This document shows, piece after piece, positions 3,945 through 41,639 of a stretch of DNA of 64,000 bases (its first letter is position 1; the number at the start of each line of letters is the position of its first letter). The notes beneath the pieces were generated by a model. It made no database searches. It saw only the letters and a list, made by a program, of their open reading frames with translations, and was not told the origin of the DNA. Source of the DNA: Brooklawnia propionicigenes (lineage in GTDB: Bacteria; Actinomycetota; Actinomycetes; Propionibacteriales; Propionibacteriaceae). The position numbers and the translations under genes were made by a program. The DNA is taken from positions 2,242,939 through 2,306,938 of the forward strand of contig NZ_AP028056.1 in the NCBI RefSeq assembly GCF_030297015.1, in the 5' to 3' direction.

Positions 3945-4664
3945 TCAGATCCCCGACCACAACACGAAGCCGACCAGCGAGGGCGGCCACGAATAGGTGA
4001 CGGCCATCTCCTGGGCCTCGCCCTCACCGCGCACACCGATACGCCAGTCGCCCTCATGCCACACGAGCTCGATCGTCGCGACCCCGTAGCCGCCGTTCTG
4101 GGCTTGCATTCCCAAGTTGACCGCCGTGGCCGTGCCGTCGTAGCTGACCATCTGGAACCCGCGGATCTGGGCGCCGCCAGTCGTGGCCGAGCTCGGCTCC
4201 GGGGTCGACAGCAGCCGGTCCCGCAGCGCCCCCGGCATCAACCCGTCGTCCGCAAGACGACCTGCCAGGGCAGGGTCGGAGCCCATCGCCGCCAGATTGG
4301 CTGCCGCTGTGAGCGCCCCGAGCGGGGTGCGGGCGTAGCAGCGGCGGTACCCGTCGGGATCGATGGTCGCGGGGCCGGCCTCGGGCACCGTCGGGGCGAC
4401 CACCTTCCCGACCAGCGACCAGGTCGCCTCCGGTGCGAGCGTCACGGTGCCGGCCATCTCTATAGGCCCCGCGGGGCACTGTCCCTGGTCGTCCTGGGTG
4501 GACGTGGCCGGCGGTGTCTCGGGTGTGGCGGGGGCCGGGCGTGACGCGATCCGCCAAGACACCACGAGGGCGGCGGCGATGATGGCGACCGCTAGTGCGG
4601 CTGCCATCCAGGTCAGTGTTGCTGGTCGTCGGGGTGGGGGCGTCGTGTCGGGGTGCTGGTTCAT
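3945..4664 (-). CDS. Conjugation operon accessory protein with one N-terminal membrane anchor
   Basis: A 239-residue protein. A short polar N-terminus is followed by a single transmembrane helix (about residues 18-40) and a soluble domain containing two cysteines and the segment VATIELVWHEGDWRIGV. Bitopic proteins of this size with an NTF2/VirB8-like soluble domain are common in such operons, and the WHEGDWRI strand would suit that fold. The VirB8-like reading is an inference from topology only. It starts 5 bases after the stop of the pilin-like gene and ends 2 bases before the start of the TrbL-like gene. Confidence 0.65.
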   Translation of the reverse strand: MNQHPDTTPPPRRPATLTWMAAALAVAIIAAALVVSWRIASRPAPATPETPPATSTQDDQGQCPAGPIEMAGTVTLAPEATWSLVGKVVAPTVPEAGPATIDPDGYRRCYARTPLGALTAAANLAAMGSDPALAGRLADDGLMPGALRDRLLSTPEPSSATTGGAQIRGFQMVSYDGTATAVNLGMQAQNGGYGVATIELVWHEGDWRIGVRGEGEAQEMAVTYSWPPSLVGFVLWSGI

Positions 4665-17351: not shown

Positions 17352-17543
17352 CGCCCGACCGGAGATGGCGCCCGAAAGATGGCGGCCGTGCAGGTAGCGC
17401 CGCACAGGCTTGTGGATGCGCTGCCGGTACAACCGCTGGGTGTGCGCTAGCACCTCGCCGACGGCCAACAATCGGGATCATCTTTCTGGTCTGGAGGGTG
17501 GGAGGCTGGGATGCGGGCTCAACAAGGTCGACGCCGATCGCCG

Positions 17544-18052: not shown

Positions 18053-19513
18053 TTACCTGATCCGGGAGATCCGTCGTTGCAGGAAGTTCTCGACGGCGGC
18101 AAGGGCGCGGAGCCGGATCTGGGCCTTGCTGGTCGTGCGTTCGTGGACGATGGCGCGCCAGTCGTCGCGATGCTCGGCGATCGGGGTGCGGGCATCGCCG
18201 ATGGCCGTCCGAGTCTCGTAGGGGCAGTACTGGCCGGAGCTCGCGATGGAGTGCTCGAGGGTGTGGGTGGATAGGATGTATCGGAGCGGTGCCGGGGTGC
18301 CGCGTCCGCCTGGATGGGCGGTAAGGCTGACGAATTGCGCCAGGAGCGCTCCGCTGACGCTTGCGGAAAGCGCAGCGACGTTTTGACGGGAGGGTGCATC
18401 CCGGTTTGCTCCTAAGATGTACTCGGGATCATCGAGTAGTCCCTCCTTGTCAAGGGGAATATCGCCGACGACGAGTTGGCCTAAGCAGGCCATGCACGGA
18501 GAACCGGGGACCAGAGTGTGTGCGCGCCATATCCCATTGCGCATGCGCCCGTCCGGGAAGGTGTCGAGCGCGATGCCACCGTCGATGACCGGGATGAGGT
18601 CCGAGTAGGCAATTGCGTTGAGCACCGCGCGCGGCCAGGGCCGGTCGACACAAGAGAAGATGACGTCGTAGTCCAGTGCAGTGCTCACTCCGACGGGGTC
18701 GGTGATGCTGACCTCGTGGCGCAAGACCTCGAATGGCTCTGCAGTCGCGGATGACTTCATCAGACGTGCGGCGACGTCAACCTTGGGTCGCCCGAGCGCG
18801 GCGTCGAGGCGGGTCGCGCCGATCATGCGATCCAGGTTCACCGCTTCGACTGCGTCATAATCCATAACGCCCACTGTCGCGAGGCCCGTCGCTGCGAGAC
18901 GCTGCGCGACATCGAGACCGACGCTCCCGCTGCCGACGATCAGAACACGCAATCGCGCGATCGATGCCTGCGTCCGTTCTCCCCACGACGAAACAGTGCG
19001 TTGCTGCGAACGCGTCACGCGGGGAATCTGACGAAGCTCGTCGTTCCATGTGACAGCGAGCTTCGGGGAGACCGCCCGCACGGACTCCGCCCATGTCGGC
19101 GTGCTCTTGTCGAACCAGAAGCGAGCTGACCATGAAGTGTCGCGTCCGGCGAGCGTCATGCCTAGGAGCGGCATCTTGGTGATCCTCCGTGCGACGCGCT
19201 CGTACTCTGACTCGGTCTCCCAGTCCATGCGGCTGAGCCCCTGCCAGCCGAGAGCACCAGGGTGGGAATGGAGGACCGCAACTCCATCACCGAGGGTCTG
19301 CGCTTCGCTTGACGCGCGAAGTACATACCTGCTGGTGAACGACGCGTTGCCGTGCACGTGACGGTCGTGTTCGTCGGGGAAGATCACGGACCGGATGAGA
19401 GCCGTCGTGCGTTCGGCGCCCGTGGAGAGTCGGTACGATGCGATGAGCACGTCTTCCTGCCCGTCGTCGCGGATGAGGTGCTTCCGCATGGCCGTCTCAA
19501 TCTCCTCAGTCAT
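18053..19513 (-). CDS. JAB peptidase-E1 (ThiF) fusion of a bacterial ubiquitin-like system
   Basis: A 486-residue two-domain protein. Residues 20-135 form a JAB/MPN metallopeptidase domain with zinc ligands HSH (82-84) and SRMD (94-97). Residues 185-450 form an E1/ThiF adenylyltransferase domain with GSGSVG (194-199), MDYDAVEAVNLDR (218-229) and a Cys-containing SPCMACLG segment. The E1 part would adenylate the C-terminus of a ubiquitin-like protein; the JAB part would trim or remove it. It is the third gene of the operon, 19 bases after the E2-like gene. Such fusions are known from predicted prokaryotic ubiquitin systems. Confidence 0.87.
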   Translation of the reverse strand: MTEEIETAMRKHLIRDDGQEDVLIASYRLSTGAERTTALIRSVIFPDEHDRHVHGNASFTSRYVLRASSEAQTLGDGVAVLHSHPGALGWQGLSRMDWETESEYERVARRITKMPLLGMTLAGRDTSWSARFWFDKSTPTWAESVRAVSPKLAVTWNDELRQIPRVTRSQQRTVSSWGERTQASIARLRVLIVGSGSVGLDVAQRLAATGLATVGVMDYDAVEAVNLDRMIGATRLDAALGRPKVDVAARLMKSSATAEPFEVLRHEVSITDPVGVSTALDYDVIFSCVDRPWPRAVLNAIAYSDLIPVIDGGIALDTFPDGRMRNGIWRAHTLVPGSPCMACLGQLVVGDIPLDKEGLLDDPEYILGANRDAPSRQNVAALSASVSGALLAQFVSLTAHPGGRGTPAPLRYILSTHTLEHSIASSGQYCPYETRTAIGDARTPIAEHRDDWRAIVHERTTSKAQIRLRALAAVENFLQRRISRIR

Positions 19514-19532
19514 GGCTACCGAGTACCGCACG

Positions 19533-19913
19533 TCAGACCGTCTCCGAGGTCGCGATGGATATGAAGCCGCGCACATGCCGGAGCCATGCGAGAGCGGGCG
19601 GCACGGACATGTCGGTGTAGACGAATTGGCGGGAGTGTCGTTTCCATCCGGGAGGGCAGTCGATGTTATCCGTGTTCGTCTGGGCGAACTTGATTGAGTC
19701 GTGCAGGTGGATCCAGTGAGGCGGTACTGCGGGCCAGCTCTGTACCTCGGACACGCTTACCCCGGTTGTCACCATCTGTCCCGCGAGCGCGCCGTCCACA
19801 GCCTTGACGCGGTAGAGGACTTGCGGACCGTCGATCCAGGCCGGAGCGCCCGCAGCAGTCATGTCCTCAAGGAACTGGAGGAGCGCTCCGGTCGGGATGA
19901 GCGGGTCGCTCAC
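19533..19913 (-). CDS. E2-like (prokaryotic UBC family) protein
   Basis: A 126-residue protein lying between a multi-ubiquitin gene and an E1 gene. The central segment VPPHWIHLHDSIKF and the C-terminal PPGWKRHSRQFVYTDM with a following amphipathic helix resemble the prokaryotic E2 family E. It has a single cysteine, Cys86, in NIDCPPGW, which is the obvious candidate for the thioester-forming residue. The start overlaps the upstream stop by 4 bases. Assignment depends strongly on operon context. Confidence 0.72.
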   Translation of the reverse strand: MSDPLIPTGALLQFLEDMTAAGAPAWIDGPQVLYRVKAVDGALAGQMVTTGVSVSEVQSWPAVPPHWIHLHDSIKFAQTNTDNIDCPPGWKRHSRQFVYTDMSVPPALAWLRHVRGFISIATSETV

Positions 19914-20347
19914 GCGACACCACCAACGTGCTTGGCAGTAACGAATTCGTTACCGTTTGTGATCTTCACGATCGTCGCGTCCCGGAATGATTCTGTGCCG
20001 CCCGTCGGCAGGATCCGAGCGAGGTCGTAGTCAGCGGGATCGACTCCGGCGAGACGGAGGAGGGCGGCCGCGGTCTGGTCGTCGTCGTAGGTGTTGTATG
20101 GCTCGCCGTCGATGGTGAATCGGATCTTCTGCCGGGAGACGAATCGCTCGCCATCTTTGAGGTTGACGATCTGGCCGTCACGAATCTCGTTCTCTACACC
20201 ATTCCGTTTGACGAGGAAGAGGTCGAAGATCTTCGGATCGCGCCCGGCGAGTCGGAGCAGTGCCGCGGCTTCTTGGTCCTCATCCTGAGTGGTGAATGCC
20301 TTGCCGTCGATGAAGATCTGCAGAGGCGCTGGGGTATTGGGGGCCAT
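19910..20347 (-). CDS. Multi-ubiquitin protein, two Ub-like repeats
   Basis: A 145-residue protein made of two ubiquitin-like repeats, about residues 9-71 and 75-137. Both share the pattern I-DG----T-D-DQ-AAALLRLAG-DP----D, then a -RD--IV--- strand and -FV at the end. The C-terminus is HVGGVA, a diglycine at 142-143 followed by two residues. This is the known multi-ubiquitin family. It is the substrate expected for the E1 and E2 partners downstream. The start follows AAGGAGGGCC. Longer upstream starts lack sites and would cross the operator region. Confidence 0.9.
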   Translation of the reverse strand: MAPNTPAPLQIFIDGKAFTTQDEDQEAAALLRLAGRDPKIFDLFLVKRNGVENEIRDGQIVNLKDGERFVSRQKIRFTIDGEPYNTYDDDQTAAALLRLAGVDPADYDLARILPTGGTESFRDATIVKITNGNEFVTAKHVGGVA

Positions 20348-20405
20348 TTGGCCCTCCTTCCTTATTGCGTGTCGCTGCCCCGCTGACCTGTAAGCGGGTA
20401 GCATG

Positions 20406-20458
20406 TACCTATCTGGTAAATCCACCATAGCACAAGTACTGTTTACCAAAGAGGTAAA
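20406..20458. promoter_or_regulatory. Two operator palindromes in the divergent promoter region
   Basis: Site 1 at 20406-20418 reads TACC-TATCT-GGTA. Site 2 at 20442-20458 reads TTTACC-AAAGA-GGTAAA. Both are perfect inverted repeats around 5-base spacers with 38 bases between centres. Site 2 overlaps the ribosome-binding site of the HigB-like gene. They lie between the ubiquitin-like operon and the toxin/antitoxin pair. The HTH of the HigA-like protein is the natural candidate to bind them, silencing its own genes and perhaps both directions. Confidence 0.65.
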
Positions 20459-20461
20459 GCT

Positions 20462-20815
20462 TTGCAGTTCGCGTGGCTCGACGCTCAGCTCCAAGGCTGT
20501 TGCGCCTCCAAGGGCCTTCTCCGCTCCGCCGCCGGGGCGCAGGCTGAGGCGGCGGAGGATCTGCTTTGCGTTGTCTCGCAAGCCCCGCGGCTCGAAAGCC
20601 TCGCAACGTTCCAAAGCGTTCGAATCGACGTCAAGGCGGGAGACCTGACTCTCTCGATCGAGGAGGTTGACATGTACGCAAGACCGCTCAGCTCCGACGG
20701 GGTGCCCTGCACCCTTATGGACCGAGCGTCATTGCTTGATCACGCTCTCACACAAGCGCTCCTTATCCGGGACCTACGCGTTCGCGGCCAATCGATCCTT
20801 CGGTGCACGAGCTGA
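20462..20815 (+). CDS. HigB/RelE-like toxin
   Basis: A 117-residue protein reading from a TTG preceded by AGAGG. The order of segments LQFAWLDAQLQGCCASKGLLRSAAG, QAEAAEDLLCVVSQAPRLESLATF, VRIDVKAGDLTLSIEEV, ARPLSSDG and ALLIRDLRV parallels HigB-like proteins that precede HigA-type antitoxins. Members cleave mRNA at ribosomes. The match is by pattern, not by strong identity, and the TTG start is unusual. It ends 10 bases before the HigA-like gene. Confidence 0.55.
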   Translation: MQFAWLDAQLQGCCASKGLLRSAAGAQAEAAEDLLCVVSQAPRLESLATFQSVRIDVKAGDLTLSIEEVDMYARPLSSDGVPCTLMDRASLLDHALTQALLIRDLRVRGQSILRCTS

Positions 20816-20825
20816 ATCGAGACTC

Positions 20826-21929
20826 ATGACCAGATATACCGCTTCAGATGCCCACTTCGACTTCGCACCCCGGCCAGGTCGTCTGCTCCAACGAGAACTT
20901 GACGCGCGCGGCATGAGCCAAGCTCAGCTCGCCGCGCGCACCGGGCTGAGCCCAAAGCACATCAATCTCGTGATCAAGGGAACAGCGTCACTTTCGCCTG
21001 ATGTTGCAGTCACCCTGGAACAGGTCCTCGGCACCTCTGCGGAGACCTGGCTCCGCTCAGAAGCGGCGTACCAGGCGCAGGAGGCACGAATCGAGAAGCG
21101 CAATGCGCTCGCTGGCTTCGTCGACTGGGCCGGATCCTTTCCTCGCCAACTCCTTGTCGACCGCAAAGTAATTGACACGACAGATTCCGGTACCGAGGTC
21201 GCGGAAAAGCTCCTCGCCTTCTTTTCTGTGGCATCGCCTAACGCATTTGCACGAACCTGGCTCGAGCCTCAAGCCTCGTACAAGAGAAGTCAGGTCTATC
21301 CGATTGATCCGAACCTCACGGCCCTCTGGCTTCGGCTCTCGGAGCTGCACGCGTCTGAACTCATCGCCAATGCTCCGACCTACGACCCGGTGAAACTGAC
21401 CGCCGTCGCCGCACTCATTCCCAGGCTCACTGTCAATGATGTGGGCAGTGCGTTCCAGGAAGCGCAGAGTCTGCTGCTCAGCGCCGGTGTCGTTCTCGTA
21501 TTCGTACCAGAAATCCCGGGTACTCGAATCAGCGGCGTGTCTCGCTGGATCAGCGGGACTCCAATGATTGCTGTGACAAGCCGATACAAGTCGCTTGATG
21601 GCCTGTGGTTCACGATTCTGCATGAGATCGCTCACGTTCTTCTTCACCCGAAGAGAAGCACTTATGTAGATGTCTCGTGCAAGGCGAAGGATGACGCTGA
21701 CCTGCACGAGACGGCCGCAAATGCATTCGCTGAGGATCTTCTGATTCCTCCTGCCTACCAGGCGACCCTCGTTGAGACGACCACGCCGCAGGGAATTCTC
21801 TCTCTGGCAGAGACACTCGGCGTCTCGCCGAGTCTGGTTGCGGGCCAGTGGGCTTTCCGGACCAACACTTGGGGTGGGCCAATCGCGAAGCTGCGAAGCA
21901 AGGTTGATCTCGCGGAGGTGCTCACGTAG
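20826..21929 (+). CDS. HigA-like antitoxin/regulator: XRE HTH fused to ImmA/IrrE-type metallopeptidase
   Basis: A 367-residue protein. Residues 20-75 are an XRE helix-turn-helix (LDARGMSQAQLAARTGLSPKHINLVIKG). Residues 210-330 are an ImmA/IrrE-type zinc peptidase domain with HEIAH at 266-270 and a third ligand Glu in ETAANAFAEDLLIP. Such proteins pair with HigB-like toxins or act as cleavable repressors of mobile elements. The ATG at 20826 lies 10 bases after the toxin-like gene. It is well placed to read the TTTACC/GGTAAA operators and so to govern the adjacent ubiquitin-like operon. Confidence 0.85.
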   Translation: MTRYTASDAHFDFAPRPGRLLQRELDARGMSQAQLAARTGLSPKHINLVIKGTASLSPDVAVTLEQVLGTSAETWLRSEAAYQAQEARIEKRNALAGFVDWAGSFPRQLLVDRKVIDTTDSGTEVAEKLLAFFSVASPNAFARTWLEPQASYKRSQVYPIDPNLTALWLRLSELHASELIANAPTYDPVKLTAVAALIPRLTVNDVGSAFQEAQSLLLSAGVVLVFVPEIPGTRISGVSRWISGTPMIAVTSRYKSLDGLWFTILHEIAHVLLHPKRSTYVDVSCKAKDDADLHETAANAFAEDLLIPPAYQATLVETTTPQGILSLAETLGVSPSLVAGQWAFRTNTWGGPIAKLRSKVDLAEVLT

Positions 21930-22077: not shown

Positions 22078-25000
22078 TCATCTCGACTCCGAGGAGCCGA
22101 GGACCTCGGCTTGTTTGAGAATGAGCTCGGTTGCCGCGGGGGCCTTGTCCGGCGGGTAGCCATGCCTGAGCAGCAGCCGTCTGATCGTCGAACGTAGCTT
22201 GGCGCGCACTTGCTCCTTGACCGCCCAGTCGGTCTTGGCGTCGCGGCGGACGATCTCGGTGAGTTCGTGGGCGATCTGTTTCATGACGTCGTCCTGTAGT
22301 GCTTCGACCGCGGATTCGTTGGTTCGCAGGGCGTCGTAGAAGGCGAGTTCGTTGTCGGATAGTCCGGTCTGCTGCCCACGGTTGCGTTCAGCGGTTAACG
22401 CTTGCGCGAGCCGGACGAGCTCTGCCACGACGGCGGCGGTGTCGAGGCTGCGGTTCTGGTAGCGGAGCAGGGATTCGTTGAGCATGTCGGAGAATTCGCG
22501 GCCCTTGACGATGTTGCGTTTGGCGATGGCCTTGATCTCGGCGTTGAGCAGTCGTTTCAGGGCTTCCATCTGAACGTTGGGGCGGTCGGATTGGGTGATC
22601 TTCTTGACGAAGGCATCATCGATCAGCGAGATGTCGGGGTTCGCGATCCCTGCTTCCGCGTAGATGTCCACCACGCCAGTGCCGGTCATGTTCTCCGACA
22701 CGATCTGTCGGATGGCGGTGTCGAGTTCCGCGGCGGTGTCGGTGGCGCCGCGCCCCGCGTTCTCGATCTTGGCGATCGCGGCGCGGACGGTGTCGAAGTA
22801 GGCAACGTCGTCGCGGATGCGGGTCGCCTCTGGGGTGGCCGGGACGAGCGAGAAGAACGACCGCAGTCGCTTGGTGTGCTCCACGAAGCGCTGCTTGGTC
22901 GTCAGGGGCTTCTTCTCCTCGTCGGTGGTTTCGACACCTTCCAAGGCGTCTTCGACGTGTTCTTGGTCAAGCAGCCACTCCACACAATCCATGACGGCAT
23001 GGAGGAACGCCTTAGGGCCCTTGTCTGCCAGCAGGGGCCGCCAGCCGAAGCCGGCCAGGATCGAGACTACGATGTCGTGTTCCTTGAGCATCTCCGGGAT
23101 GGCCGTTTTCTCGATGTCGGCACCGACCTGGCCGTTGTCCTGGTCACGTTTGGTGTAGTCGGCAAGCGCCTCTTTCAGGTCTTCAGCGATACCGATGTAG
23201 TCCACGATCAGCCCGGCGGGTTTGTCCTTGAACGTGCGGTTCACCCGGGTGATGGCCTGCATCAACGACACACCGCGCATCGGCTTGTCGACATACATGG
23301 TCGTCATCGCGGGCGAGTCGAACCCGGTCAACCACATGTCCCGGACGATGACCATCTCCAGGGGATCGTCGGGGTCGGAAGCTCGCGCCTTCAACGCCCG
23401 CATCTGCGCTTTGTTCCGGATGTGTTCCTGCCAGGACTCGGGATCGGTCGCCGACCCCGTCATGACGACCTTCATCCGGCCCTTGGTGTCGTCCGGGTCG
23501 TACCAGTCGGGACGCAGCGCCTTGAACTTGTCGTGCAGGGCGACCGCGATCCGCCGCGACATCGTGACGACCATGCACTTGGACTGCGGCATCAGCTCGT
23601 GACGGGCCTCCCAGTGGGCCAGAATGTCGCGGGCCAACTCGTCCAGCCGCTCGTCTGCGCCGACGATAGCCTCGACCCGTGACCAGCGCGACTTCAGCCG
23701 CTCCTGGGCTTCCTCCTCAGTACCCGAGACGGCGTCAGCGAACGCGTCGTCGATGTCGTCGAATGCTCCTCCGGGCAGGCGCACCTTCGCCAGGCGGGCC
23801 TCGTACAGCACCTTGACCGTGGCACCATCCTCGACCGCCTGAGTGAGGTCGTAGGTGTCGATGACATCACCGAACACCGCCGTCGTGGACCGGTCCTTCA
23901 CCTCGATGGGTGTACCGGTGAAGCCGATGAAGGTGGCGTTCGGTAGGCCGTCGCGCAGGTGTCGGGCGAACCCGTCGATGAAGTCGTAGTTCGAGCGGTG
24001 GGCCTCGTCCACCATCACGACAATGTTGGTGCGTTCCGACAAGACGGGGAACTGGATGCCGGCCTCGCGTTCGTCCTTGGACAGTCCGAACTTCTGGATC
24101 GTGGAGAACACGATGCCGCCCGATTGGCGACCGGTGAGGAGGTCCTTCAAGTCCTGCCGGGACTCGACCTGCACCGGCACCTCCGGCAAAGGTGCGCCGG
24201 GCCTGGTCGCTGCGAAGGTCTCCTCGAACAGTTGATTGTCCAGATCGTTGCGGTCGGTCAGCACCACCAGCGTCGGGTTGTCCATCGCCGGGTGCCGCAT
24301 CAGTTTGCCCGCATACCAGGCCATCTCGAACGACTTGCCCGAACCCTGCGTGTGCCACACGATCCCGGCACGGCCATCGCCCTCGACCGCCTCGATCGTC
24401 TCTGCGACCGCTTTGGTGACGGCCCAGTACTGGTGGTACTTCGCGCCGATCTTGGTGGCCTTCTCGCCGTCACCGGTGAACGCGATGAAATTGTGCACCC
24501 AGTCCAGGAACACCTCAGGGCGTAGGTAGCCCTCGACCATCACCTCGATCTCGGGCCGGTACTTCGGCGCCAACGACTGGCCGTCGACGGTCTTCCACGT
24601 CTGGAAATGGTTCGCAGGGGCCGTGAGCGTGCCCATCCGGGCCAAGATGCCATCCGAGAGCACTACGCCCTGATTCCACGTGAACAGGTCGGGAATCTGA
24701 GCCTTGTAGGTCTGGATCTGTGCGTATGCTCCGGCGAGGGTGGCGTTCTCCTCACCCGGCTTCTTCAACTCCAGCAACCCGAGAGGCAGGCCGTTCACGA
24801 ACAGCACCACGTCCGGACGCCGGTCTTTCTTTGGCCCCTGAATGGTGAACTGGTTAACCGCTAGTAGATTGTTCGCGAGTGGGTTCGCCCAATCCACGAG
24901 TTGCGCCCGCGCATTTCGTAGGACGCCCTCGGCGTCGCGGTATTCGACCGGTACGCCGAAGATCAACAACTGGTAGGCGCGCCAGTTCTCGGTTTGGATG

Positions 25001-25239
25001 ACAGCCGATTCGGGACGGATCGCCGTCTTGATGGCATCCTCGACAGCATCCGAGGGGAGCTCGGGATTGAGCTCGATGATCGCGCCCCGCAGCTGTTCCA
25101 CAAGCACGACCTCGCGGTAGTCCGAGCGTTCTGCGCCGGGCATTCCCGGCGCGATCTCAGGGCCGTGGAGCGTCTGCCAACCGTGGCCGGCCAGCATCTC
25201 CAATACCCAGTCCTCCAAGTCGGACTCCGCGACAGCCAT
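22078..25239 (-). CDS. hsdR: Type I restriction endonuclease subunit R
   Basis: A 1053-residue protein. The N-terminal nuclease motif is DRRPDVVLFVNGLPLGLLELKKPG (PD...ExK). The SF2 translocase motifs follow: HTQGSGKSFEMAW (I), VVMVDEAHRSNYD (II), ATFIGFTGTP (III) and DMWLTGFDSP further on. A C-terminal helical region contacts the methylase core. It cuts unmodified DNA after ATP-driven translocation. The start lies 3 bases after the hsdS stop, and the whole hsdMSR set is one leftward operon. Confidence 0.95.
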   Translation of the reverse strand: MAVAESDLEDWVLEMLAGHGWQTLHGPEIAPGMPGAERSDYREVVLVEQLRGAIIELNPELPSDAVEDAIKTAIRPESAVIQTENWRAYQLLIFGVPVEYRDAEGVLRNARAQLVDWANPLANNLLAVNQFTIQGPKKDRRPDVVLFVNGLPLGLLELKKPGEENATLAGAYAQIQTYKAQIPDLFTWNQGVVLSDGILARMGTLTAPANHFQTWKTVDGQSLAPKYRPEIEVMVEGYLRPEVFLDWVHNFIAFTGDGEKATKIGAKYHQYWAVTKAVAETIEAVEGDGRAGIVWHTQGSGKSFEMAWYAGKLMRHPAMDNPTLVVLTDRNDLDNQLFEETFAATRPGAPLPEVPVQVESRQDLKDLLTGRQSGGIVFSTIQKFGLSKDEREAGIQFPVLSERTNIVVMVDEAHRSNYDFIDGFARHLRDGLPNATFIGFTGTPIEVKDRSTTAVFGDVIDTYDLTQAVEDGATVKVLYEARLAKVRLPGGAFDDIDDAFADAVSGTEEEAQERLKSRWSRVEAIVGADERLDELARDILAHWEARHELMPQSKCMVVTMSRRIAVALHDKFKALRPDWYDPDDTKGRMKVVMTGSATDPESWQEHIRNKAQMRALKARASDPDDPLEMVIVRDMWLTGFDSPAMTTMYVDKPMRGVSLMQAITRVNRTFKDKPAGLIVDYIGIAEDLKEALADYTKRDQDNGQVGADIEKTAIPEMLKEHDIVVSILAGFGWRPLLADKGPKAFLHAVMDCVEWLLDQEHVEDALEGVETTDEEKKPLTTKQRFVEHTKRLRSFFSLVPATPEATRIRDDVAYFDTVRAAIAKIENAGRGATDTAAELDTAIRQIVSENMTGTGVVDIYAEAGIANPDISLIDDAFVKKITQSDRPNVQMEALKRLLNAEIKAIAKRNIVKGREFSDMLNESLLRYQNRSLDTAAVVAELVRLAQALTAERNRGQQTGLSDNELAFYDALRTNESAVEALQDDVMKQIAHELTEIVRRDAKTDWAVKEQVRAKLRSTIRRLLLRHGYPPDKAPAATELILKQAEVLGSSESR

Positions 25240-25242
25240 CGC

Positions 25243-26433
25243 TCAGGCCACCCCCTCCACCTCAGACACTCGCACCCGGCCCGACATCAGCAGCGGAAGA
25301 AGCTCGTCACGTTGACGAGCCAGCTCCTGTGCTTCGAGGCGGAGCTCTAGTGCGGCCGACCAGATCGGTTCGATGGCAGGGCCGAGGCGGGCGATGGTGT
25401 CCGGATTAAGCCCTGTCATTGGTACATCGAGATTCGCACGCTGGATGTGGCCCATCGTCGTCGCCTTGTCCTTCGCCAGACTGACGAACCAGGGCAACTG
25501 TGCCTCAATGAGGGCGAAAACGTACCAGTCTGGCACCTGGTTGGGGATCACCTTGAAGACATGCTGGTTGACCAGTCCGTCCGTGTAGATCCAGCGGTTG
25601 ACCATCAAGGAACCAGACCAAACGAACAGGATGTCTCCGACGCGGGCAATTCGGCCGTCATCGGCGACGGCAACCGAACTCCAGACAGTGTTTCCACCTG
25701 GTCCAGAACGAACCTCGGGGGTCCTGATCACGGGCCGGCCAGTGCCATCAGCGCCGTTGGTGAAGTTGCGTCCGTTCACGAACGAGGCGACCTCGTTAAG
25801 GCTAGTAGTGACTGACGATGCGGCGAGGGCACCAGAGACCCAAGTCCTGCGTAGGGCGTCCAGCTGCTCCGCCAGCCGTCGATCCGTCCTGATGAGGTCA
25901 TCGAAGGCCCCGAGTACATCCGCGATGCGCCGTTGCTCGTCACTAGGGGGAAGGGACACTGGAATGCGTTCAAGAATCTCCTGATTGAGCGATGCCATCG
26001 TCGAGCCGCCTGCCTGCTGAACAAGCCAACGACGGATGAAGGGGCTTGCCACATGGTACGCAAGGAACCGACCGCAAACGTCTTCACCAACCCGGATGCG
26101 AAGGGCATCGGATCCGAGAAACCAACCGTCCTCTGTCGAAGACACGTAGCAGTTCCGTTCAACACCACCCTTGCGAGCGAAGACCACGTCTCCTTCACGT
26201 AGTCGAAACTGGGGTAGTCTCTCAAGGGTCGCTTCACCAACTCGAGGGGTGCTCGAGGAGATTCGGAACTCCCCGTGGCCTATCTCCCCTGTCGAAATCA
26301 ACGGGACGCCTTCCGATACGTACTCCGCTGCCTTCAGCATCGTGCCGAAAGGGCCGGTCTTGATGTCACATCTCCCCTTGGCGCACAGGTCTCGTAGCGT
26401 CAACGCCGGCCAACTATCCACGATTGACCACAT
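25243..26433 (-). CDS. hsdS: Type I restriction-modification specificity subunit S
   Basis: A 396-residue protein with two target-recognition domains. The first ends around QQAGGSTMASLNQEILERIPVSLPP and is followed by a conserved helix, DEQRRIADVLGAFDDLIRTDRRLAEQLD. The second half begins FVNGRNFTNGADGTGRPVIRTPEV and ends in a second helix, EAQELARQRDELLPLLMSGRVRV. It sets the DNA target of both the methylase and the nuclease. The ATG overlaps the end of hsdM by 20 bases. Confidence 0.92.
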   Translation of the reverse strand: MWSIVDSWPALTLRDLCAKGRCDIKTGPFGTMLKAAEYVSEGVPLISTGEIGHGEFRISSSTPRVGEATLERLPQFRLREGDVVFARKGGVERNCYVSSTEDGWFLGSDALRIRVGEDVCGRFLAYHVASPFIRRWLVQQAGGSTMASLNQEILERIPVSLPPSDEQRRIADVLGAFDDLIRTDRRLAEQLDALRRTWVSGALAASSVTTSLNEVASFVNGRNFTNGADGTGRPVIRTPEVRSGPGGNTVWSSVAVADDGRIARVGDILFVWSGSLMVNRWIYTDGLVNQHVFKVIPNQVPDWYVFALIEAQLPWFVSLAKDKATTMGHIQRANLDVPMTGLNPDTIARLGPAIEPIWSAALELRLEAQELARQRDELLPLLMSGRVRVSEVEGVA

Positions 26434-28024
26434 CCAGTGTGTCTAAGGCGCGTTCAATCTTCTCGTGTATCTCTGAACGTCGTGTCAGGTCGGCGCGAAT
26501 CCCGGCGACTAGCCCACCGATCCTCTCCTCAGTTGACACACCGTCGTCCTCCTCCAGTGCTGCGCCGACGTAGCGCCCCGGGCTGAGGGCGTAGCGCGCG
26601 TCCGCGACCTGGCAGATCTCGGCAGAAGCGCAGAAGCCGGGCACATCCTCATAGGGCTGAAGGTCCGGAGTGCCACGCCATGCGTTGTACGCGTCAGCGA
26701 TTCGCGCCACGTCCTCGGACGCGAGGTTGCGGTGGGTGCGTGATTCCATGTAGCCCATGTCGCGAGCGTCGATGAACAGCACCTCGCCCTTGCGGTTCCG
26801 CTGTGGTCGTTCAGACCCCACCTTGCGTGCGGTCTTGTCCTTGGTGAGGAACCACAGCGATACGGGAATTTGCACGGAGTAGAACAGCTGCGAGGGCAAT
26901 GCGACGATGCACTCCACGACGTCGTCCTCGATCATCTTGCGGCGAATGTCTCCCTGTCCGGACGAGTTGACCGTGAGCGAGCCGTTGGCCAGTACCACGC
27001 CCATCGTCCCTGTGGGAGACAGGTGATGGAGCATGTGCTGTAGCCAGGCGTAGTTGGCGTTGCTGGGTGGTGGGGTTCCGTATTTCCAGCGCTTGTCATC
27101 GGTGAGGCGTTCGCCGCCCCAGTTGGAGATGTTGAATGGTGGGTTGGCGAGGATGAAGTCTGCGCGTAGGTCGGGGTGTTTGTCGTCGTGGAATGAGTCG
27201 CCCCATTCCGGGCCGAGGTTGGCTTCGATGCCTCGGATGGCGAGGTTCATCTTCGCGAGCCGCCAGGTGGTGGGGTTCTGTTCTTGGCCGAATACGGAGA
27301 TGTCGTTGCGTGCGCCGCCGTGGGCGGTGACGAAGTGTTCGGCTTGGACGAACATGCCGCCTGAGCCGCAGCAGGGGTCGTAGACGCGTCCGTTGAAGGG
27401 TTGGAGCATCTCGACCAGCAGCGAGACCACTGAGCGGGGCGTGTAGAACTCGCCGCCGTTCTTGCCTTCGTTGGAGGCGAACTGGGCGAGGAAGTATTCG
27501 TAGACGCGTCCGAGGACGTCGGTTCCTTGGTGTTCGGCTGCGGCGAGGTCGTCGCGGGAGAAGGTGTCGATCAGGCCCGCGAGCGTGCTGGGGGTGAGTT
27601 CGCGGCGGTTGAAGTTCTTTGGGAGTACGCCCTTCAGGGATGGGTTCTCCTTCTCGATGGCCTCCATCGCGGCGTCGATCCGGGAGCCGATGTTGGGCTG
27701 TTTCGCGGCCTTGCGGAGGTCGCTCCAACGGTGGCCTTCGGGGACCCAGAACACGCCTGCGGCGGTGTACTCGTCTCGGTCGTCCAGGACCATCTGTCGG
27801 GCGGCGGCGGTGGGCATGAAGTAGTCGCTCGTTTCGTCTTGTACAAGTGCTTCGAGCTCTGTTCGGCGGTATTCGAACTTGTCCGAGACGTACTTCAGGA
27901 ACAGCAGCCCCAAGACCACGTGTTTGTACTCGGCTGCATCCATGTTTGAGCGGAGCTGGTTGGCGGCAGCCCAGAGGGCGTCCTCCAAGCCGAGGGGAGC
28001 GGTCTTCGTACCGCGAGGTGCCAT
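26414..28024 (-). CDS. hsdM: Type I restriction-modification methylase subunit M
   Basis: A 536-residue N6-adenine methyltransferase. The N-terminal helical domain (residues 10-140) contains LWAAANQLRSNMDAAEYKHVVLGLLFLKY. The SAM-binding motif is VYDPCCGSGGMFVQ and the catalytic motif IV is NPPF in ILANPPFNISNW. It protects host DNA as part of M2S. It is the first gene of the leftward hsdMSR operon. Confidence 0.95.
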   Translation of the reverse strand: MAPRGTKTAPLGLEDALWAAANQLRSNMDAAEYKHVVLGLLFLKYVSDKFEYRRTELEALVQDETSDYFMPTAAARQMVLDDRDEYTAAGVFWVPEGHRWSDLRKAAKQPNIGSRIDAAMEAIEKENPSLKGVLPKNFNRRELTPSTLAGLIDTFSRDDLAAAEHQGTDVLGRVYEYFLAQFASNEGKNGGEFYTPRSVVSLLVEMLQPFNGRVYDPCCGSGGMFVQAEHFVTAHGGARNDISVFGQEQNPTTWRLAKMNLAIRGIEANLGPEWGDSFHDDKHPDLRADFILANPPFNISNWGGERLTDDKRWKYGTPPPSNANYAWLQHMLHHLSPTGTMGVVLANGSLTVNSSGQGDIRRKMIEDDVVECIVALPSQLFYSVQIPVSLWFLTKDKTARKVGSERPQRNRKGEVLFIDARDMGYMESRTHRNLASEDVARIADAYNAWRGTPDLQPYEDVPGFCASAEICQVADARYALSPGRYVGAALEEDDGVSTEERIGGLVAGIRADLTRRSEIHEKIERALDTLDVVNRG

Positions 28025-28242: not shown

Positions 28243-28638
28243 ATGGTGGAACCGGGCGGTCTACGACGGCTGTCTCGCCGGCGGGCACGCAACGTGACCG
28301 GCGGGCGTCCGTTCAGGCATGAGGTGAAGGTTTCCGAGGCCGAGGAGGCGCAGCTGGTGGTTCTTGCGGCCCGGCACCGAGTGACGATCCCGCGGTTGTT
28401 GGTGATGTCGACGTTGGAGCGTTCGGACGAGATCACGGCGGCGGATAAGCGTGAGCTGCTGACGGAGTTGTTGGTGATTCATCGTTTGCTGGGGAACGTG
28501 GCGAACAATGTCAACCAGATCGCTAAGGTGGCGAACTCGACACGGGAGTTGCCGCCGCAAACCGACGCGGTGCTGTCCGCGGCCTGGTCGACACTGCACA
28601 GGATTGACGGTCAGATCGAACGGTTTGGTCTATCGTGA
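28243..28638 (+). CDS. mobC: MobC-like mobilisation accessory protein
   Basis: A 131-residue basic protein. A ribbon-helix-helix-like part (FRHEVKVSEAEEAQLVVLAARHRVTIPRLLV) is followed by the MobC helix LLVIHRLLGNVANNVNQIAKVANST. MobC proteins bind oriT and help the relaxase open the strands. The stop overlaps the GTG start of the relaxase by 4 bases. It is transcribed rightward from the candidate oriT. Confidence 0.85.
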   Translation: MVEPGGLRRLSRRRARNVTGGRPFRHEVKVSEAEEAQLVVLAARHRVTIPRLLVMSTLERSDEITAADKRELLTELLVIHRLLGNVANNVNQIAKVANSTRELPPQTDAVLSAAWSTLHRIDGQIERFGLS

Positions 28639-30308
28639 TCCCGAACGTGCGGCGTGGCCAGGACATGGTCCGGCTCATCAAGTACCTGGTGGGCCCGGGG
28701 AAACGCAATGAGCATACGGATCCGCATTTGGTGGCGGGCAGTTCGTGGCAGATGGCCTGGCACAGCGACGCGGAGCTTTCGTATGCGGACGCGACCGCGA
28801 TGGGCAACGATCTGGAGGCTCCCACCAGGGCGTTCGATGTCGAGGTGCCGCGTGGGCATGTGTGGCATTGCTCGTTGTCGCTGGATGCTGCCGAGGGACG
28901 GCTGGCTGATGATGAATGGGCCGAGATCGCCGAGCAGTTCATGACCCGCATGGGGTTTGTCACCGATGACCTGGAGCAGCCGTCGTTGCGGTGGGTGGCG
29001 ATCCGTCACGGGGTGTCGAGCAACGGCAACGACCATATTCATCTGGCGGTCAACTTGGTGCATGAGGACGGGTCGGTGGCCGATGTGTTTCGGGATTGGA
29101 AGCGTGCCCAGTCGGCGTGCCGCGAGCTTGAGGCGCAGCATGGCCTGCGACAGGTGGGCATGAACGGATGCTCGTGCATCGGATACAAGCCCGGCGAGAT
29201 CGAGGCCGAGGCCCGCCGTAGGGCCCGTGCCGCGCACGCGCGAGCACACGAGGCCGGACGAGAGCAGCGCACCTGGGGCGAGATCCCGAAGGCTGAACGG
29301 CACGCGATCGTCGCGCATTACACGCCGGCCGAGGCGGTGCGGTGGATGCTGGCCCGGCAGGTGCGGGCGGCCAGCACGGCGGCGGCTGATGAGGGGGAGT
29401 TCGTCCGCCGGGTTCGCCGGCAGGGTTTGTTGATCAGGCCGCGGTTCGCGCGGGGTACTCAGGATGTGGTGGTCGGCTATCGGGTGGCGGCGCGTCCTCG
29501 GTACGGGGAGCGTCCGATCTGGTTCGGCGGTGGCCACCTCGCCCATGATCTGACGCTGCCCAGGTTGCGGGAGGCGTGGCCGGACACACCCCAAACCAGC
29601 TTGGCGGCATCGGCGGAATGGCGTGCCGCATGGCGTGGTATCCGGGTCGCAGAGCCGGGACGCGAAACTCGCGAACCCGCACCCGGCCTGCCGCAGAAGC
29701 TGACCGCCGATCTGGACGCCATGCGCGCACAGCTGCACGCGATTCCACCCAATGACCTGGCCGGGTGGGGGCGAGCAGCGGGGCAGGTGTCGGGCGCGCT
29801 GTCGGCGTGGTCAGTGGCCACCGAACCCGCCCCCGGTCCGTTGGCGCAGGCCGCGGACGCGATCGCCCGCTCGGCCGAACTGCGTCGCCCGCCGCTGCCG
29901 CGACCGGACCGGGTGTCCGGGATGTCGTCGATCGCCGGGCTGATTCTGGCCGGGGTCGGGAAGGGACGCAAGACCCAGGAGATGCTCACCCGGACGCTCC
30001 TGTTGCGGCAGTTGCTCGCTCTCGGTAGGGCGGTCGCGGAGGCGCACCAGGCGGTCGGGGAGCTGCGCCGGGCTGAGCAGATCAACCGCGTCTTGAACAC
30101 CCGGCTGGCGCCGATGCTGCAGCAGTTGGAGGCATCCATGCCGCGAGCGCACGGCACCGATCGGGTGCCGGCGCCAAGTGATCAGCAGTCGGTGGTGGCT
30201 GCTGCGTTCAGCCGGCCTGCAGGGTCGGTGACCCCACCGAGCCTGCCCGCACCACCGACGCCGGCGCGGCGTCCTGACCGCACGACCCCGGCCGGCGCCG
30301 AGCGATAA
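28635..30308 (+). CDS. Relaxase, MobA/VirD2 type (MOBP-like)
   Basis: A 557-residue protein from a GTG start. The N-terminal relaxase domain contains the metal-binding motif NDHIHLAVNLVHEDG (His-x-His with a preceding His-containing strand IRHGV). A basic Arg-rich linker and a helical, Ala/Arg-rich C-terminus ending in a Pro-rich tail follow. It nicks oriT and pilots the strand to the recipient. The gene looks intact. Its last 250 bases are duplicated in decayed form at 35755-36010. Confidence 0.87.
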   Translation: MIPNVRRGQDMVRLIKYLVGPGKRNEHTDPHLVAGSSWQMAWHSDAELSYADATAMGNDLEAPTRAFDVEVPRGHVWHCSLSLDAAEGRLADDEWAEIAEQFMTRMGFVTDDLEQPSLRWVAIRHGVSSNGNDHIHLAVNLVHEDGSVADVFRDWKRAQSACRELEAQHGLRQVGMNGCSCIGYKPGEIEAEARRRARAAHARAHEAGREQRTWGEIPKAERHAIVAHYTPAEAVRWMLARQVRAASTAAADEGEFVRRVRRQGLLIRPRFARGTQDVVVGYRVAARPRYGERPIWFGGGHLAHDLTLPRLREAWPDTPQTSLAASAEWRAAWRGIRVAEPGRETREPAPGLPQKLTADLDAMRAQLHAIPPNDLAGWGRAAGQVSGALSAWSVATEPAPGPLAQAADAIARSAELRRPPLPRPDRVSGMSSIAGLILAGVGKGRKTQEMLTRTLLLRQLLALGRAVAEAHQAVGELRRAEQINRVLNTRLAPMLQQLEASMPRAHGTDRVPAPSDQQSVVAAAFSRPAGSVTPPSLPAPPTPARRPDRTTPAGAER

Positions 30309-36052: not shown

Positions 36053-36847
36053 TTAGGCGGCGGGTGTAACGGTGTAGCCGGCGGTGTCGAGGTCTCGGAT
36101 CTTGCGGCGCACGCTGGCGGCATTGGCGGGTCGGGCGTAGTAGGTATCACCTAGATCGTAGTAGAACTCGCCGGTTGTGAACTTGTGCCAGATGCTGGTG
36201 ATCATGGAGCGCTCGGTCACCACCAAGGCCCTGGAGTAGCCGAGTCGAGCAGTCAGCCGCTTGAACCTGATGTTCAGGAAGGACCCCTTCTTCCGAACAG
36301 CAGCTATCGCCGCGATCCCCAGGGTGCGTTTGATGTAGTGGTTACCCGGAGGAGTCGCAACCCGCTTGTTGGTCCCGGCAGACTGGTAGCTGCCCGGAGC
36401 CACCCCTGCCCACGAGGCGAGTGCTGCGGGTGTGGGGAACACGTTCATGTCGACGCCGATCTCGGCGATGAGTTCCTCAGCACCTCGAGGACCGATCCCG
36501 GGAATGCTGACCAGCAGGTCGCGGGCGCTGGTCCACCCTTCGGCCTCCATCAACGCATCGACCTCACGATCGAGGGCGTCGATGTCGGCGGTGGCCTGCT
36601 GGATCCGTCGGAGCCGGAAGTCGATCATGAACCTGTGGTGATCGTTAACCCGGCCGGTGAGGGCGTCGGTCAACTCATCCAGACGGGACCGCAGCTTGCC
36701 TTGGGCGAGACCAGCCAACACGGCGGGATCGTCTTCTCGACCCACGATCCCCCTCAACATTGCGGTCGCGGACTTGCCCTGCAGGCCCGACACCACAGCA
36801 GCCAACTTGATACAGGCGTCCTCCAACTCCTTCTCCAAGCGTTGCAC
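36053..36847 (-). pseudogene. IS110-family transposase, N-terminally truncated
   Basis: 264 residues remain of a protein that is normally about 400. The C-terminal transposase domain is clear: LVSIPGIGPRGAEELIAEIGVDMNVFPTPAALASWAGVAPGSYQSAG and NHYIKRTLGIAAIAAVRKKGSF. The frame continues upstream to about 36890 as PARRQQLRCEVPQIRG, but the N-terminal DEDD catalytic domain is missing. The break coincides with the truncated end of the next gene. Not active. Confidence 0.85.
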
Positions 36848-40574: not shown

Positions 40575-41639
40575 ATGTCACTTGCTGACCACTCAACCCG
40601 ACCTCTATCTGACGATCAGTCGTGGATCGAACTGGTCAGAGCGATCTCCGCTGCCAAGGAAGTCGATGAGACGCTGTGGCTGGAATGGAAGTCGCACCTT
40701 GACCTAGCCGCCAAGGTAGATCAGTTTGCTCTGGCGAAGGAGATTCTAGCCATGGCTAACCGCGATGTGCGGGCCGCTTCTGTCTACTGCGAAGGATGGG
40801 CATACATTGTGGTGGGCGCTTCAGAAGAAGGCATCGGCGGGATAGAGCCTCAGGCGTCGGCTAGCCTTGAGCAGAAGCTTTCCAGATATCTTGGAACAGG
40901 GAAGGAAGCCCCCCGCTGGCATCTCCACAACGTCACAGTCGACGACCGAAATGTGTTGATCATTGAGGTGGAGCCGCCGAAGGATGGTGACCGCATGTAT
41001 ACGCTTCACAGGGACTCACCTACCGGCGCAAGAGCCGGAACTGTGTTCACCCGGATCGCTGAGAAGTCGGAGCAGGCCAGTCCTGCGCAGATCGTTATGC
41101 TGGAGGACCGCCTAGTTGATGGCGGCTTCGAGGAACGCATTATGGAACGGGTGGCTCTCGTGTGCACCACGCTGGACGCGCACGTGGACTTCGACGAGAG
41201 TAATGCCGCGCAACGGTTGTTTGCCGTCATCACGGACCAGCCAGCAATTTCGGTTGCACCATCTGTCAGCGTTTGGCTGCACCCTGTTCCTCGCCTGAGG
41301 TTCTCGGCCAGTATCCCGGGCGGACCGTCCACCTTGTGGCCGCCGCGCACCACGCATATGCTCGCAGTCTACCCAGCCGGATATGACCTTCGAACAGCAT
41401 ATTCTGACGTTCGCGACACAATGAAGGCACTAAATCGGCCCTACGCTATCTCTGATCACAACACGCCAGAGCCGGGGAACCTTATTGCAGTCTGCACGGA
41501 GAGCTTTGGAGAATTGCACTCCGCCGTCAAGTTGCTTCTGCGAGCAGGGCCGGCAGGCAGCATCGGAATGCACTCCAGTATCCAGGCAATTCGAATCCAA
41601 ACATGCCCCGATACCTTCGACTACAAGGTAAGCATCTAG
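40575..41639 (+). CDS. AlbA_2/Schlafen-like domain protein
   Basis: A 354-residue protein. The N-terminal 150 residues contain WLEWKSHLDLAAKVDQFALAKEILAMANRD and YIVVGASEEGIGGIEP, the AlbA_2 domain found in Schlafen-type proteins. FTRIAEKSEQASPAQIVML follows, a common boundary. The rest is unrecognised. Such proteins bind nucleic acid or are linked to defence; here no nuclease partner is seen. A palindrome overlaps its ribosome-binding site. Confidence 0.72.
   Translation: MSLADHSTRPLSDDQSWIELVRAISAAKEVDETLWLEWKSHLDLAAKVDQFALAKEILAMANRDVRAASVYCEGWAYIVVGASEEGIGGIEPQASASLEQKLSRYLGTGKEAPRWHLHNVTVDDRNVLIIEVEPPKDGDRMYTLHRDSPTGARAGTVFTRIAEKSEQASPAQIVMLEDRLVDGGFEERIMERVALVCTTLDAHVDFDESNAAQRLFAVITDQPAISVAPSVSVWLHPVPRLRFSASIPGGPSTLWPPRTTHMLAVYPAGYDLRTAYSDVRDTMKALNRPYAISDHNTPEPGNLIAVCTESFGELHSAVKLLLRAGPAGSIGMHSSIQAIRIQTCPDTFDYKVSI

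Follow-up and report, generated by a model that had tools for sequence, protein, structure and literature searches.

A Bub-type ubiquitin-like operon of Brooklawnia propionicigenes and the divergent HigB/HigA-M78 pair proposed to control it

In a 64,000-nucleotide stretch of the Brooklawnia propionicigenes genome (contig NZ_AP028056.1, positions 2,242,939 to 2,306,938; hereafter the window), three genes encoding a double beta-grasp ubiquitin-like protein (Ubl), a protein with the E2 (UBC) fold and a JAB-E1 fusion stand head to head with genes for a HigB-fold protein and for a HigA-type helix-turn-helix (HTH) protein fused to an M78 (ImmA/IrrE) metallopeptidase (Table 1). We consider it probable that the three genes form a conjugation operon of the Bub type, the expression of which is set by the divergent pair acting as a two-protein switch. 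The gene order and coordinates, proposed earlier in a sequence-only reading of this DNA, were confirmed when the window was re-read. The Ubl and E2 genes overlap by four bases, the JAB-E1 gene starts about 20 bases after the E2 gene, and the divergent gap between the Ubl and HigB-like genes is 114 bp long.

Judged by sequence comparison, the operon is of the Bub type, row 6e of Iyer 2006. The JAB-E1 protein matches the solved BubCD of Citrobacter (E = 5.7e-22) over query residues 20-426 of 507, spanning both JAB and E1, and its profile does so with E = 1.8e-27, the next best solved relative being MoeB (E = 3.8e-12). A domain scan finds the ThiF adenylation domain, and the JAMM residues are H82, H84, S94 and D97; Pfam JAB gives no match for the window protein. 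The Ubl matches PF14452 (Multi_ubiq) in two stretches (E = 2.5e-13). BubB heads both structure-search lists for the E2 model, with weak scores; a profile search of the PDB with the E2 alignment found nothing, and the E2 and Ubl profiles match the Citrobacter Ubl-E2 protein only weakly. These results bear out the ubiquitin, E2 and JAB-E1 assignments of the sequence-only reading, whereas the relatedness to Bil that it had also proposed has to be corrected. Bil (BilABCD) likewise holds Ubl, E2, E1 and JAB in a single operon. However, Bil has separate JAB (BilC) and E1 (BilD) genes, whereas here the two are one open reading frame (ORF) whose nearest solved protein is BubCD and not BilD, and Bil membership is thus ruled out; matches of the Ubl profile to BilA and to a multi-ubiquitin protein (E = 0.12-0.13) are too weak to count. 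With Bub operons the window operon shares the Multi_ubiq Ubl, the BubCD-homologous JAB-E1 protein, probably the E2-fold domain, the island or plasmid context and the adjoining damage-type regulators. It differs in its separate E2 gene, which in the Citrobacter plasmid is fused to the Ubl protein, in the Val-Ala tail of its Ubl and in three E1 cysteines that Citrobacter lacks. DUF6527, a frequent companion in 6e operons, gave no phmmer match at E <= 10 in 58 loci and window positions 1-40000.

The HigB/HigA-M78 pair is a recurrent neighbor of such operons. We compiled 55 Ubl loci, namely the window, 45 loci with a recognisable Ubl from a scan of genome contigs and nine plasmid loci. The contig scan had given 51 loci, from which L048, L071, L074 and L075 (partial E1) and L076 and L077 (weak matches) were dropped, and nine of the ten plasmids at 50% identity or more were taken in (NZ_AP022623 was left out). 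Near-copies among the 55 are L026, L027, L032, L033 and L051. In every locus, E1 comes after the Ubl and E2 genes. With regulator classes assigned by us from the best phmmer matches, the HigB/HigA-M78 pair lies beside 22 of the 55 loci, 14 of them of the window type and 8 of a second type, which excludes its presence only here by chance. The other loci carry a CapH+CapP-like pair (10 loci; in L041, which is cut by a contig edge, only the HTH is visible), an extracytoplasmic function (ECF) sigma factor with an unassigned protein and an M78 peptidase (8), a sigma-like factor with an unassigned protein and an SMC-like ATPase (12), an HTH protein with a protein kinase (2) or another M78 protein (1), and an M78 peptidase is visible in 40 of the 55. 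On an E1 tree of 51 rows built by a quick method, 13 changes account for the regulator classes; shuffled classes required 31.1 on average, and 0 of 200 shuffles were as low. Each HigBA type by itself needs at least 3 changes. The placement of the window on this tree also points to an actinobacterial host. Beyond this branch, 9 of 197 family genomes gave Multi_ubiq matches. Distant Multi_ubiq operons have a HigB/HigA-M78 pair (L005), a HigA-M78 gene (L006), a CapH/CapP-like pair (L004) or an M78 gene (L003) as neighbors, and no such regulator lies within the 1.2 kb covered at L007.

The divergent gap contains two TACC-N5-GGTA palindromes, 38 bases apart, in agreement with the earlier proposal of two matching operators there. 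Read from the sequence, the TACCAAAGAGGTA operator overlaps the likely ribosome-binding site of the HigB-like gene. Paired sites at the same positions, one adjoining the HigB-like start and the other about 40 bases on, are present in all 14 window-type loci and in none of the 8 second-type loci; in 7 of the latter a TCACC/GGTGA palindrome was recognised by eye. Part of this conservation is general, since several flanking columns are invariant too. L043 nevertheless retains both operators although its HigB-like protein is only 31% identical. A promoter scan gave no sigma-70-like or promoter-like site between the operators. A terminator-like hairpin at window positions 20339-20356 on the plus strand overlaps the Ubl start codon.

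The larger regulator protein matches the HigA-type model TIGR02607 at 54.6 bits (cut-off 47.7) as well as PF01381 and PF06114, and the modeled fold of its partner resembles HigB in structure comparison. The HigB-like/HigA-M78 pair recognised earlier is upheld. A Foldseek search with the HigB-like model ranked unrelated proteins first, and Pfam HigB gave no match for the window protein. The M78 active-site residues H266, E267, H270 and E295 are invariant in all 35 aligned regulators of all classes, taken from the 40 loci with a visible M78 after five near-copies were left out; 31 of them are recognised by Pfam M78 at E 0.001. As a background rate, 6 M78 matches occur in the 3.2 Mb of the window genome. 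The family of the window HigB-like gene occurs only beside the Ubl operon, in both of two plasmid records and in its own genome, the sole one among 194. In the corresponding HigA-M78 gene of a M. abscessus plasmid (L020:3430-4530), the public annotation places the start at 4383, within the HTH; the reading frame stays open as far as 4530 and, taken from there, includes the full HTH.

The C-terminal DYH motif of HigB has a role in toxicity, and the HigB variants Y91A and delta-H92 occur in PDB titles. The window protein ends without this motif. Of 24 Ubl-linked copies, 21 lack the C-terminal His, and all 19 unlinked copies that were scored have it; the unlinked L089, L097, L103 and L105 had no HigB ORF meeting the rule, L097 showing a HigB-like frame whose end lacks the motif, perhaps through a frameshift. 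The pair is of the toxin/antitoxin type by descent, as had been proposed, but its HigB copy lacks the usual toxin motif. A plain addiction module, in which a HigB toxin and a HigA-M78 antitoxin retain the island and adjoin the conjugation operon by chance, would be in keeping with the solitary occurrence of the same pair type in many genomes and with the location of the Ubl operon on a variable island. We regard it as unlikely in view of the linkage at 22 loci with at least 3 forced changes for each HigBA type, the head-to-head layout with paired operators and the loss of the HigB motif in most linked copies; moreover, the pair is swapped for other regulators and not for other toxins.

A defense pair resembling PD-lambda-2 also seems improbable. 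Here the HTH-peptidase would be a toxic effector and the HigB-like protein its inhibitor, with the Ubl operon as a third component or an independent defense. The HTH-M78 protein does match PD-Lambda-2_B (PDLC03982; E = 9.7e-32), and PD-lambda-2 A/B (Vassallo 2022) has the same gene order, with a HigB-like gene ahead of a HigA-peptidase fusion. According to the available part of PMC9519451, PD-lambda-2B is toxic when overexpressed, and the HigB-like PD-lambda-2A relieves this toxicity. The pair in the window differs in being divergent from a Ubl operon and in the loss of the C-terminal HigB motif. Against this reading, a PADLOC scan of seven window proteins, with no dedicated search made, gave no third PD-lambda-2 component, and the operators and the exchange with CapH+CapP-like pairs indicate regulation.

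We return to the pair as a switch of the Bub-type operon, a course of events that we infer from operator binding onwards, through repression, cleavage, induction and conjugation to phage defense. The HTH-M78 protein would bind both TACC-N5-GGTA sites and repress in either direction. The M78 site would be activated by a stress signal, for which single-stranded DNA arising in damage or phage infection is the likeliest candidate, as in CapP/PprI, M78 proteases in which, as stated in the accessible portion of PMC10904395, single-stranded DNA activates cutting of the HTH repressor. Cleavage either of the HTH-M78 repressor or of a partner subunit would then relieve repression and lead to production of Ubl, E2 and JAB-E1. 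The motif loss in linked copies, taken together with the relief of HTH-peptidase toxicity by the HigB-like protein of PD-lambda-2, suggests a former toxin turned into a partner of the regulator. The HigB-fold protein, presumably no longer an RNase toxin, might restrain the HTH-peptidase or tune its DNA binding. By analogy, the pair may plausibly sense damage or phage, since other operons of this type are accompanied by CapH+CapP-like or sigma-plus-M78 modules, and 219 of 544 Bub operons adjoin CapW or CapH+CapP in the available part of PMC13373217, a 2026 paper. Like CapH+CapP, the window pair combines an XRE-type HTH with an M78 peptidase having an intact active site and is divergent from an immune-type operon; related CapH+CapP-like pairs adjoin relatives of the window operon and are predicted to control them. 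It differs from CapH+CapP in that HTH and peptidase are in one 367-aa protein with an additional HigB-fold partner.

The E2 fold of the second protein is supported, but its lone cysteine, pointed out in the earlier reading, is not conserved. Cys86 is present in 29 of the 55 loci and absent from 26 (25 of 50 have it once near-copies are removed), whereas the His-Ser pair (H93-S94 in the window) is found in all 55. A Val-Ala end is shared by 53 of the 55 Ubls, and the longer GGVA by only 17 of the 55, so the tail is not of the di-glycine kind. Given these counts, Cys86 is probably not the Ubl-carrier residue, and a cysteine-thioester E2 was set aside as unlikely. Bub enzymes reportedly use oxyester intermediates, with which the E2 counts are compatible. 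The E1 would adenylate the C-terminal Ala of the Ubl and hand the Ubl to the E2, where it would probably be held by a non-cysteine residue such as Ser94, and the JAB domain would reverse the conjugation. Since no residues follow the conserved Ubl tail and a maturation cut is unneeded, a deconjugase role is likelier for the JAB domain than one in maturation. In the E1, C340 and C343 are present in all 53 members excluding Citrobacter and C430 in 52 of them; as these cysteines are nearly universal in the branch and all three are absent from Citrobacter, they look more like a possible metal site peculiar to this branch than like a catalytic cysteine common to all. That no protein is conjugated at all, an inactive E2 merely binding the Ubl while E1 and JAB serve, say, sulfur transfer or Ubl assembly, fits the missing E2 cysteine in 26 of the 55 loci, for which the 6e domains were judged inactive in the available part of Iyer 2006 (PMC1779556), but is very improbable given the later Bub work that, going by the title of Ye 2026, reports conjugation.

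Other regulators beside the Ubl operons deserve mention. L024:2822-5054 has, in the orientation of the Ubl operon and leading into it, genes for an ECF-type sigma factor, a protein of about 222 aa without Pfam match and an M78 peptidase. The same set is found in L045, L046, L058, L063, L065, L066 and L069 and is possibly a peptidase-controlled sigma/anti-sigma switch. The set with a sigma-70 region 4 protein, a protein of about 310 aa without Pfam match and a RecF/RecN/SMC-type ATPase (L057:1642-5140, L059, L061, L062, L073, L025:7678-11194 and six more) is a candidate for an undescribed DNA-damage regulator. In L034:2029-5037 and L035, genes for an HTH protein, a protein kinase and a tetratricopeptide repeat protein are divergent from the Ubl operon, and on the E1 tree both are nested within loci carrying the HigB pair. 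The 4.4-kb contig L027, which is assigned to a Spirochaetia metagenome-assembled genome, is 100% identical to the window E1 over 483 matched residues and is probably a mis-binned actinobacterial contig.

The operon and its proposed regulators lie on a variable island. A same-species genome matches the window at 99% up to position 17,355, where its contig continues beyond the match, and from there to 47,900 only short repeats match; positions 17356-47900 are thus absent from that genome. The island also encodes restriction-modification and mobility proteins (Table 1), a defense-like mobile setting that is consistent with a role in defense without proving one. The window contains no tRNA, and Rfam gave 0 matches in positions 12000-48000. 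The Ubl has no match among 50,697 phage records, and viral contigs yielded no relative in a search with the E1 alignment.

Table 1. Features of the Ubl locus and its island in the window
Feature	Position	Strand	Basis or remark
JAB-E1 fusion, BubCD-like, 486 aa	18053..19513	-	BubCD and ThiF matches; motif and cysteine counts
E2/UBC-fold protein, BubB-like, 126 aa	19533..19913	-	Cys86 not conserved; H93-S94 invariant
Double beta-grasp Ubl, 145 aa, GGVA end	19910..20347	-	PF14452; family alignment; tails
Operator TACCTATCTGGTA, on the Ubl-gene side	20406..20418	.	conserved in 14/14 window-type loci
Operator TACCAAAGAGGTA, directly 5' of the HigB-like start codon	20444..20456	.	conserved in 14/14 window-type loci
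HigB-fold protein, 117 aa, TTG start, without C-terminal DYH toxin motif	20462..20815	+	
HigA-type HTH fused to M78 (ImmA/IrrE) metallopeptidase, 367 aa, intact HExxH...E	20826..21929	+	
Type I restriction-modification (HsdR, HsdS, HsdM)	22078-28024		
Relaxase	28635-30308		
IS110-type transposase	36053-36847		
Schlafen AlbA_2 protein	40575-41639		

The component parts are of known kinds. What sets the locus apart is its branch, in which E2 is separate, the tail is Val-Ala and DUF6527 is lacking, together with a proposed HigB/HigA-M78 switch whose HigB motif has been lost repeatedly. We found no printed account of a HigB pair beside Bub operons, a weak negative as Gong 2025 and Ye 2026 were not covered; neither HigB nor ImmA occurs in the available text of PMC13373217. 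We tentatively propose that Ubl operons have repeatedly domesticated a HigB/HigA-peptidase pair as a switch, in which HigB has mostly lost its catalytic end and become an inhibitory or sensing subunit. If so, whether a tagging pathway is allowed to run would depend on the state of a former toxin. Bub operons have been described only recently, phage protection not having been shown so far according to the accessible part of PMC13373217. Because the version described here has only three genes, a delimited promoter region and two candidate switch proteins, both the inducer and the E2 carrier residue could be tested in one construct. If the degenerate HigB is indeed the partner of the regulator, the locus would provide a clear case of a toxin-antitoxin pair turned to the control of an immune operon, more than once on the tree.
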